A DNA stretch of 25,022 nt from a virus: the IMG/VR virus record IMGVR_UViG_3300036715_000976, positions 1-25,022 of that record. One strand, written 5' to 3'. The position numbers and the translations under genes are program-made. Positions 15,390 through 25,022 of the stretch are shown here, in pieces (positions within the stretch are counted from its first letter, which is position 1; each line of letters begins with the position of its first letter). The notes under the pieces were generated by a model. It had not been told where the DNA came from. It did not search any database and saw nothing but the letters and a program-made list of their open reading frames with translations.

Positions 15390-16025
15390 ATGATACGAAT
15401 CACGAAGTGGGAAGAGATTCAGCCGGGCTGTTTCTGGTCGGTCCACGAAACTGGGATTATCTCCCGCGCCATTCAGTTCTTTTCCCGTGGCCGGTATAAT
15501 CACTCCGGCTGGATTGTGGCCGTGAATGAGAACGGCCCAATCTCCCAGGAAGCGCGGAATCATATTGAGCGCCACCCATTGTCGGAGTACCGCGCCGAAT
15601 GGGAGCGCGGCGACCTTGCCGTATTCTGCCCGAATCAGCCTCAACGGGCGATTGATTTTGCCATCCGAAACGCCGAAGACCGAGTAGGGCAAGGCTACGC
15701 CTGGGCTTCGGTCGTGAATCTCGCCGTCATTCTCCCGCTCAACTGGATTGCTGGGCTGTTCAATCGTCAGGTCCCCAATCCCATCCGCCGTCACGTGTTT
15801 TGCTCGGGAGAAGTCCTTGTCGCTCTCACCGACATGGTCCTCATGGCTAACGCTCTGGGCGTTGGCAGTGGAGATTTGGGCTGGGCGATGGAAGTGCCTG
15901 ACAGGGACACCTTCACCCCGCAAGACTTGTACGACGCCGCCGCAAAAGAAGCTGCGAAAATCCCTTCCACCACCTATCCCGCAACGCAGTTATTCGCCGT
16001 CCGTAACGATTCCAGCACGCTCTAG
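15390..16025 (+). CDS. Permuted NlpC/P60-like (YiiX/YebB-type) protein
   Basis: This 211-residue protein resembles the permuted papain-fold group. An N-terminal PGCFWSVHETG is followed by the His motif RYNHSGWIV, and the Cys motif HVFCSGEVLVAL occurs late (about residues 135-146). That order, His first and Cys later, is opposite to ordinary NlpC/P60 enzymes and typical of YiiX-like hydrolases. A hydrophobic stretch (VVNLAVILPLNWIAGLF) lies between. In this context it could cut peptidoglycan peptides or lipoprotein acyl/amide bonds at lysis; which is unknown. It is the last gene before the long regulatory gap; the start is supported by AGAGG five bases upstream. Confidence 0.6.
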   Translation: MIRITKWEEIQPGCFWSVHETGIISRAIQFFSRGRYNHSGWIVAVNENGPISQEARNHIERHPLSEYRAEWERGDLAVFCPNQPQRAIDFAIRNAEDRVGQGYAWASVVNLAVILPLNWIAGLFNRQVPNPIRRHVFCSGEVLVALTDMVLMANALGVGSGDLGWAMEVPDRDTFTPQDLYDAAAKEAAKIPSTTYPATQLFAVRNDSSTL

Positions 16026-16134
16026 CACACCCAATGGGTCTGCTATAGCACACCTATAGGGACCCTATAAGGACCTTACTAAGGTGGCTATAAGGACCTT
16101 ATAACTCCCTGCAAAATCACGCCAAAGGTGTGCC
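16023..16134 (+). promoter_or_regulatory. Array of operator-like palindromes
   Basis: Within 112 bases there are near-identical inverted repeats with a single central base: TATAGGG-A-CCCTATA (16055-16069) and TATAAGG-A-CCTTATA (16089-16103), both perfect, and a degenerate copy at 16066-16080. The 14-mer CTATAAGGACCTTA occurs twice, 23 bases apart (16065-16078, 16088-16101). ACCTTA-C-TAAGGT (16073-16085) and TGCTATAGCA (16041-16050) are further palindromes. The block is flanked by GCACACC (16025-16031, 16048-16054) and its complement GGTGTGC (16128-16134). It lies immediately upstream of a strong promoter, as binding sites for a phage repressor, activator or replication initiator would. Confidence 0.7.
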
Positions 16135-16136
16135 AC

Positions 16137-16165
16137 TTGACTTTTGGGGCCGGAGGGATTATATT
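16137..16165 (+). promoter_or_regulatory. Sigma70-type promoter, early region (copy A)
   Basis: TTGACT (16137-16142), a 17-base spacer and TATATT (16160-16165). The -35, the three T's after it, the GAGG inside the spacer and the ATTATATTT around the -10 are all shared with the promoter at 24607. The operator-like array ends three bases upstream. Confidence 0.8.
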
Positions 16166-16171
16166 TGCCTT

Positions 16172-16309
16172 TGGAAAGGCCGCTGTCGGCGGCTAGGAAG
16201 AAGGGCGAAGTGGATAAGAGACACACCGAATACAAGCCGTTGCGGTCTTCGCGCCTTTCACCGCGACTGTTCAGGCCCTGGGTCCGACAGCCCCAGGGCT
16301 TCTTCATTT
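16172..16309 (+). ncRNA. Predicted short structured transcript or attenuated leader (copy A)
   Basis: A transcript from the promoter would start near 16172 and meet an intrinsic terminator at 16273-16309, giving an RNA of about 135 bases. A 5' hairpin GCCGC (16179-16183) with GCGGC (16189-16193) lies near the start. The layout matches that at 24607-24794, including a motif CCGAA then TTCACCG in the middle. It could be a free small RNA, or a leader controlling read-through into the methyltransferase gene. The ends are estimated, not measured. Confidence 0.4.
16273..16309 (+). terminator. Intrinsic terminator after the early promoter
   Basis: GCCCTGGG (16275-16282) pairs with CCCAGGGC (16292-16299) over a 9-base loop; the stem extends by A-U and G-U pairs at its base. 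TTCTTCATTT follows (16300-16309). It lies about 110 bases downstream of the -10 box and 255 bases before the methyltransferase start. Confidence 0.65.
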
Positions 16310-16429
16310 CCCACGACATAAAATGCAGTCCGAGAAATCGGCGGGTGTCTGAGTCCGTATGTCTCCTGAATCCAAAACGTACGGCTTGCGGTCTAGCAAA
16401 AAATCCAGGCAACGAGCAGGTAGTTGATC

Positions 16430-16539
16430 CTGCACCGCCCCCAGCGTCCTGGTCCAAAATCATAGAATCTGTACCGCGCTAGACTGATTCTGCTACTGCA
16501 TTGCGTCATAGTTATGATTAGGGATTGGGGGCGGTGTAG
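16430..16539 (+). repeat. Long multi-arm inverted repeat before the methyltransferase gene
   Basis: CTGCACCGCCCCCA (16430-16443) is the inverted match of TGGGGGCGGTGTAG (16526-16539) at 13 of 14 positions. Nested inside are AATCATA (16458-16464) against TATGATT (16513-16519) and AGAATC (16464-16469) against GATTCT (16486-16491). All arms are in register for one large cruciform or RNA stem. The right arm ends 13 bases before the ribosome site AAGGAG (16553-16558). No convincing gene covers this stretch. Confidence 0.6.
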
Positions 16540-19683: not shown

Positions 19684-19712
19684 TTGACAAATCCAAAAAA
19701 AGGTACTATATT
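19684..19712 (+). promoter_or_regulatory. Near-consensus sigma70 promoter for the middle operon
   Basis: TTGACA (19684-19689), 17-base spacer, TATATT (19707-19712). The spacer is A-rich. It lies in the 119-base gap after the HNH gene, and the leader includes a small hairpin CCGCC/GGCGG (about 19722-19738) before AGGAG and the next start. Spacing and -10 box equal those of the promoters at 16137 and 24607, but the flanking sequence differs. Confidence 0.85.
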
Positions 19713-24419: not shown

Positions 24420-24610
24420 AGCTGAAAAGGTGGGAAATCACTCGGACCGAGGGCGAAGAGGGCGAATTGACTGCCATAACGTTTTACGGACCCTGGCGGA
24501 ATGGCGTCAATGCCGCGTTCACCATTTACTCCGATGAGACGGCAGGGAAGCCGGAGTTCGTCGAATGGCTCTTGCGGAAGCTGAACGCAAAGCCAAAACG
24601 TAGGACTTGA
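24365..24610 (+). CDS. Hypothetical small protein with two possible starts
   Basis: The frame has two good starts. ATG 24365 (81 residues, preceded by GGAGGAGG) adds a CREC pair; ATG 24416 (64 residues, preceded by GAGGAGGAG) overlaps the previous stop as ATGA, the favoured style in this genome. The shared part is KRWEITRTEGEEGELTAITF, then NAAFTIYSDETAG and a basic end (NAKPKRRT), like a small beta-alpha domain. No known family. The end of the gene contains the -35 of the next promoter. Confidence 0.6.
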   Translation: MASNFCRECQIANEEESMKLKRWEITRTEGEEGELTAITFYGPWRNGVNAAFTIYSDETAGKPEFVEWLLRKLNAKPKRRT

Positions 24611-24635: not shown

Positions 24636-24682
24636 TAGACTGACCGGCACGGTGCTGGTCATGCTCTTGGCAGGAGCGCAAA

Positions 24683-24808
24683 ATGAAGGCGGCACACAGA
24701 CAATCCGAAAAAGGGCTAAGCGGCTTCCACCTTCACCGTTTGGCCCCAGTCCTAGCCCGCCGGGCTGCCAAACCGGCGGGCTGGGCATCATTTTGGAGGC
24801 TCCAATGA
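24683..24808 (+). CDS. Possible 41-residue basic leader peptide
   Basis: ATG 24683 has AGGAG (24672-24676) six bases upstream, and the frame ends on a TGA overlapping the next ATG (24805). The product is Arg/His/Leu/Ala-rich (SEKGLSGFHLHRLAPVLARR). An intrinsic terminator lies inside the frame, so it may be a leader whose translation sets read-through, or simply a chance frame over a structured RNA. The analogous place after the 16137 promoter has a GTG frame with a similar basic character, but it does not end at the next gene. Confidence 0.35.
   Translation: MKAAHRQSEKGLSGFHLHRLAPVLARRAAKPAGWASFWRLQ
24751..24794 (+). terminator. Strong intrinsic terminator after copy B promoter
   Basis: CCTAGCCCGCCGG (24751-24763) pairs with CCGGCGGGCTGGG (24773-24785) including one G-U pair, 9-base loop, followed by CATCATTTT (24786-24794). 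It stands between the promoter and the last gene, and its loop length and distance from the promoter match the copy at 16273-16309. Confidence 0.65.
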
Positions 24809-25022
24809 GCAAAAGAAGAACTTGTGGGACTTGTGTGCACGGTGATTTTAGCGGCGGATACCCTGTAGGCACGTGTCTAGTGGCGCGTGTCCTGTCCAAC
24901 GGGCTCGCGGATATAGGCATCCCACAGTCTATAGACCAGCGCCAGCCTATCAGATACCGCAAGATAAACGCTCTGGAAAGCGCTGCGCACTGCGTTTCTT
25001 ATGAGGCGAAGAAGAAGAGCGA
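24805..25022 (+). CDS. Cys-containing hypothetical protein (3' truncated)
   Basis: The frame is open to the window edge, giving 72 residues so far. ATG 24805 follows GGAGG (24795-24799) by five bases. The start is RRTCGTCVHGDFSGG with Cys7-x2-Cys10, then GTC at Cys24 and a later AHCVSY, so four cysteines could bind zinc. The gene lies directly behind the terminator, so its expression from the nearby promoter would need read-through. Confidence 0.65.
   Translation, partial: MSKRRTCGTCVHGDFSGGYPVGTCLVARVLSNGLADIGIPQSIDQRQPIRYRKINALESAAHCVSYEAKKKS

Follow-up and report, generated by a model that had tools for sequence, protein, structure and literature searches.

A candidate second initiator site between the late and early genes of a phage

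In the satellite phage P4, a single initiator, which is a primase-helicase, serves two distant clusters of boxes, ori and crr, and crr is needed in cis. In plasmids, the inc iterons let an initiator act off its origin and limit re-initiation or copy number. Among phages, two-site initiator systems are best known from SPP1 of Bacillus subtilis, in which gp38 has two binding sites, oriL within gene 38 and, 12-13 kb away, the non-coding oriR of the late region (PMC6316719, PMC3485210). An AT-rich unwinding element is part of oriR, and gp38 has been proven to bind this site at nanomolar concentrations; in the proposed model, forks stall at bound oriR and the switch to concatemer synthesis is thereby triggered (PMC6316719, PMC3485210). 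A replication initiator also acts at a site away from the origin in the Vibrio crtS/RctB system (PMC11711613).

The window analyzed here is the full length of an IMG/VR virus record of 25,022 bases, which is probably a fragment. The main genes all lie on the + strand. Head and tail genes extend to ~13.4 kb and are followed by lysis-region and unassigned genes up to 16,025; the last of these late-type genes (15390-16025, + strand) encodes 211 residues and has a 93% identical counterpart at the same place in a related contig, G001. Past 16,025 come early-type genes for a ParB-domain/MT-A70 methylase, an HNH protein, a small HTH protein (20250), an Erf annealing protein, an exonuclease-like protein, and a RusA resolvase. 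The intergenic DNA separating the late block from the early block holds an array of repeated boxes. We consider it likely, with a probability of roughly 0.6, that these are distal non-coding iterons for the phage's own initiator, most likely with a role like that of SPP1 oriR or as a late-used origin.

Like SPP1, this system combines initiator boxes inside the initiator gene with a second, non-coding cluster of direct repeats in the late region and kilobases away (here just after the last late-type gene, and 7.6 kb from the gene in G001), in a phage that has a DnaB helicase and recombination proteins. Unlike oriR, the window array has no distinct AT-rich element. The gene order also differs from that of SPP1, the distance is about 7.6-9.3 kb, and the boxes of the G001 array match two different initiators. 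P4 is similar in its single initiator with two distant clusters and differs in the kind of initiator. The crtS/RctB system and the inc iterons belong to the cell-cycle or copy control of resident replicons, whereas this array stands at a phage late/early junction.

Layout of the array

The intergenic region runs from the late-gene stop codon to the -35 box of the next promoter (16026-16136). A preliminary description had claimed two perfect palindromes, a third, degenerate one, a 14-base direct repeat, and other palindromes in this DNA, and we found all of them. The perfect palindromes, TATAGGGACCCTATA (box 1, 16055-16069) and TATAAGGACCTTATA (box 3, 16089-16103), are the only exact occurrences of TATARGGNCCYTATA in the 25-kb record. 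The degenerate one, TATAAGGACCTTACT (box 2, 16066-16080), overlaps box 1, and a weaker copy, TATAGCACACCTATA, lies at 16044-16058. The direct repeat CTATAAGGACCTTA occurs at 16065 and 16088, and the other palindromes are ACCTTACTAAGGT (16073-16085), which accompanies box 2, and CTATAG-N5-CTATAG (16043-16059). The pattern TARGGNCCYTA was found three times in the window (16057, 16068, and 16091), all inside 45 bp, whereas 300 first-order Markov resamplings averaged 0.05 per window and reached at most 1. The unit centers are 11 bp apart with one 23-bp gap. Unit starts are likewise spaced by 11 and 23 bp, and the ladder continues upstream in weaker units, so the palindromes are better read as the most conspicuous portion of a tandem, helically phased array with an 11-12-bp period than as separate palindromes. 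Its core (16043-16105, + strand) consists of overlapping 11-12-bp units with the consensus TATARGGACCY. Tandem units of about one helical turn, conserved beyond their neighbors, are what is expected of an iteron array.

The GCACACC/GGTGTGC flanks that had been described as inverted boundary boxes are also present, with GCACACC at 16025 and 16048, GGTGTGC at 16127-16133 (- strand, adjoining the promoter), and one further copy in the window at 2341. Their reading as an inverted boundary is less clear, since the GCACACC boxes partly belong to the same ladder: its members GCTCTAGCACACC and GCTATAGCACACC, 23 bp apart, take them in, as do the two degenerate units GCTCTAGCACACCCAATGGG and GCTATAGCACACCTATAGGG, also 23 bp apart (16019-16061). 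In G001, the first GCACACC copy is GTACACC, and GTGTGCCACTTGAC at the promoter-side box is retained.

We searched Rfam with the window and with the array region and found nothing credible, and no DNA similar to the array region was found in 50,697 phage records. Two IMG/VR matches to a dimer pattern (L071 and L072) are single dimers in other phages and by eye are unrelated. A reading of the palindromes as transcription terminators was rejected because their loops are one base long and no T-run follows.

Conservation and matching boxes in initiator genes

Two relatives only were found: G001 (IMGVR_UViG_3300037010_000803, 56,652 bp), to which the preceding gene and the methylase led, and L078. 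The array is at the same place in G001, and over the 63 bp of the core 62/63 positions are identical. Flanking genes are 88-92% identical between the window and G001 and the DNA just outside the core 60-77%; identity is 90.9% in the preceding gene (80.6% at third codon positions), 77.4% with 31 gap columns in the DNA past the core, 60.0% in the promoter, and 70.5% in the transcript region that follows. Taken alone, the conservation of the core is suggestive, because 3.3% of 63-bp windows across the whole alignment are conserved at least as well; its sharp edges in non-coding DNA are the stronger point.

The G001 contig (L073, L074, L075, L065, and L079) is long enough for about 1.6 genomes and holds sequence of two related phages. 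Its early region is present twice, ~35.7 kb apart and with differing sequence, as parts of those two phages. One early region carries an initiator that we call A and the other an initiator B, an arrangement that reflects either natural initiator swapping or an assembly join. Initiator A (P0001) has 281 residues, and its gene is followed by that of a DnaB-type helicase. It matched PHROG primosomal and replication-initiation families at an E value of about 1e-20, with a weak N-terminal DUF1376 match below Pfam's cut-off. Searches for relatives of initiator A in GTDB genomes and by sequence in the PDB returned none, and an AlphaFold2 model of it, with a mean pLDDT of 52, was set aside. Initiator B has a different N-terminal half, found in IMG/VR in G001 only, and a C-terminal half 72% identical to that of A.

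Each gene contains its own boxes. Gene A carries AAGGTGGATATAAGCACCTTATA and AAGGTGGTTAATAAGGACCTTATTAAGGACCTTAATAAGG, with AT-rich repeats of five bases after them, and gene B carries TGTTAACAC repeats every 10-11 bp. The intergenic array of G001 has both types, first the TATAAGGACC units that it shares with the window and then CTGTTAACAGCCTGTTAACTCGTGTTAACTCTTGTTAACTC, which is missing from the window array. In a blind search, we queried all but 135 bases of the G001 contig with its own array and set self-hits aside. For the TATAAGGACC part, the best match lay inside gene A (score 18), as did the next two (16 and 15); the best match outside gene A scored 12, and 300 dinucleotide shuffles reached at most 14. 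For the TGTTAAC part, the best match lay inside gene B (score 19, against a maximum of 16 in 300 dinucleotide shuffles). Summed matches in the cognate gene were 73 and 43, where 2,000 shuffles gave maxima of 24 and 34, respectively.

The boxes recur in the second relative as well. In IMG/VR, an exact search for TAAGGACCTTANTAAGGT, a string from the box 2 region, gave G001 twice, in the array and in gene A, and the initiator gene of the second relative (L078/L081), which carries the same boxes as the window array. Box 3, taken with the preceding TAAGGTGGC, matches gene A at 22/24 positions. Further exact matches to TAAGGACCTTANTAAGGT (L082, L084, and L085) fall in coding sequence of other phages that gave no initiator match and were discarded. 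The earlier suggestion of iterons is thus borne out insofar as a near relative has the same units inside its initiator gene and at no other place in the DNA read. Because these signals recur inside that gene, at a distance of over 7 kb, the array is most likely a further landing site for the initiator.

Box type follows the N-terminal half of the initiator, since A and B differ in that half and in their boxes and share the C-terminal half. The in-gene boxes are known from the relatives, as the window stops ahead of the initiator gene. Its last gene (24805-25020, + strand), whose stop codon is not reached, encodes a product 100% identical over 72 residues to the neighbor that precedes initiator A in G001, compared with 42-45% for the counterparts before B; initiator A is therefore expected past the contig end, and the window phage presumably carries it, with its TAAGGACCTTA boxes, beyond 25,022.

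The binders proposed in the preliminary description were the HTH protein and the ParB-domain protein, and both now seem unlikely. An operator for an unrelated phage repressor of this kind would suit the palindromic, multi-site layout, and both genes lie within 4.3 kb of the array. The HTH protein, however, is 97% identical in copy A and 94% in copy B, whose in-gene boxes differ completely, so it does not track the boxes. The early region that adjoins the array in G001 lacks the ParB-domain/MT-A70 methylase gene, and a ParB/parS partition site, which should keep company with a ParB-domain gene, is not what we find there. Such an operator would also leave the matching boxes in initiator genes A and B unexplained, and we regard it as highly improbable.

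Possible roles of the array

The preliminary description had also raised a replication origin. We found neither a distinct AT-rich unwinding segment nor a sign change in GC skew at the array. AT content is 57% in the core and 45% in the segment after it, compared with 67-72% at the in-gene site; the array has direct repeats as oriR does and, by this composition test, lacks the AT-rich unwinding element beside them. The skew analysis that had been proposed gave a slope that turns up after 16 kb with its sign unchanged; as almost every gene also points the same way, it is not diagnostic here. In this class of initiator, the classical origin lies inside the initiator gene, which we counted against an origin at the array. 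It is very unlikely in our estimation that the array is the primary origin and the in-gene boxes secondary: the G001 array does have both box types and the adjacent transcript could open or prime DNA, but AT-rich repeats adjoin the in-gene boxes rather than the window array, and in-gene linker repeats are common in related initiators that have no distal array.

We looked for distal arrays by self-comparison in lambda, Pseudomonas phages psageB2 and Shamal, Gordonia phage Gsput1, and 13 other IMG/VR loci, covering 50,000 of the 50,739 bases of psageB2, the whole of Shamal, Gsput1, and lambda, and up to 10 kb on each side of the IMG/VR loci. Within that extent, no convincing distal cluster was found in the four reference phages or at the 13 distant-homologue loci, and most of the compared loci had short repeats inside the initiator gene. 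Lambda ori, in gene O, likewise has repeats inside the gene of a two-part initiator, and lambda has no distal box cluster in this comparison. At L091, L092, L096, L098, L100, and L101, short direct repeats with periods of 11 or 24-27 bp lie in the initiator linker between the N- and C-terminal parts, and phage origins probably often lie in such linkers. This initiator family does not in general require a distal array, because related initiators do without one in the DNA examined.

A sigma-70-type promoter, TTGACT-17-TATATT (16137-16165, + strand), follows the array as had been claimed; it belongs to a phage promoter family and has a near-copy at 24607. The initiator, or a regulator of the same specificity, might activate or repress this promoter and so couple early transcription to replication, which we consider unlikely. 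A good sigma-70 promoter begins 34 bp past the end of the array, and helically phased sites ahead of a promoter suit an activator. Against this, the distance between boxes and promoter is not kept (G001 has the TGTTAAC insertion, with 31 gap columns, and a promoter only 60% identical), the boxes are clear of -35 and -10, and boxes are missing from the promoters at 19684 and 24607. An operator, as first proposed, is weakened by the same observations: a repressor's site would be looked for at other early promoters, and neither 19684 nor the near-copy at 24607 has a box.

The promoter leads into a probable structured transcript (16166-16312, + strand) that has conserved blocks in G001 and ends in a CCCTGGG-TCCGACAG-CCCCAGGG hairpin; single-sequence folding of this transcript was not significant. 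The near-identical promoters at about 16137 and 24607 (CTTGACTTTT...ATTATATTT) each precede an apparently non-coding stretch with a terminal GC-rich hairpin (16166-16312 and 24637-24800). In the first stretch, the 5' hairpin loop UGUCG could pair with the 3' hairpin loop UCCGACAG, and both are kept in G001. A search for more phages with the conserved start of this transcript returned one unrelated extra match only (L104). Downstream, a short conserved element GCAACGAGCAGGTAGTTGATCCTGC...GCGTCCYGGTCC was found at 16404-16456 of the window, L003:142-196, L078:5486-5538, and L105:867-919; three of these contigs are viral and one is bacterial. It has a possible paired frame, CCAGG/CCTGG, which is CCGGG/CCCGG in L078 and L105, and no Rfam match; with four sequences only, it is possibly an undescribed small structured RNA.

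Returning to the array as a second initiator site, we propose the following. The initiator would be a two-domain protein encoded just past the right end of the window. It would bind iterons in its own gene beside AT-rich repeats, where theta replication would start in the style of lambda ori and SPP1 oriL. Its other target would be the second array at the late/early junction, at a distance of 7.6 kb in G001 and, by extrapolation, about 9.3 kb in the window phage. There, a tight initiator complex may stall the first forks and help the switch to recombination-driven concatemer synthesis; alternatively, the array may be a late-used origin. The Erf annealing protein, exonuclease-like protein, and RusA resolvase are the kind of toolkit invoked in the SPP1 switch model (PMC3485210). 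We infer both the binding of the initiator to the array and its action there, whether fork stalling, a second origin, or transcription control. Overall, the array probably works like oriR, yet we do not file it as oriR because no distinct unwinding region was found.

The initiator could also act at the array for another purpose. The distal boxes might titrate it or pair with the in-gene origin by handcuffing and so limit re-initiation, as plasmid inc iterons do. Boxes without a distinct unwinding region, and a single G001 array whose boxes match two initiator types, would be in keeping with this; a lytically replicating phage, however, has little need for copy control, and the subset of window-phage proteins searched yielded no lysogeny or partition gene. 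We judge copy control quite unlikely. In G001, it is not certain which of the two phages owns the array, because an assembly join in the contig possibly lies at or near it. How box type pairs with initiator type is independent of that join, and the case for one phage keeping boxes for two initiators depends on it. An unlikely extension is that the distal array is a multi-specific dock, in which an initiator swap adds new boxes and keeps the old, and which serves or intercepts the initiators of co-infecting relatives.

A second two-site phage initiator system, with another gene order, conserved boxes, and a natural initiator swap, would give a comparative handle on the switch from theta to concatemer replication. 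It also offers a sequence rule, the comparison of in-gene initiator repeats with the rest of the genome, by which such sites may be found in other phages.
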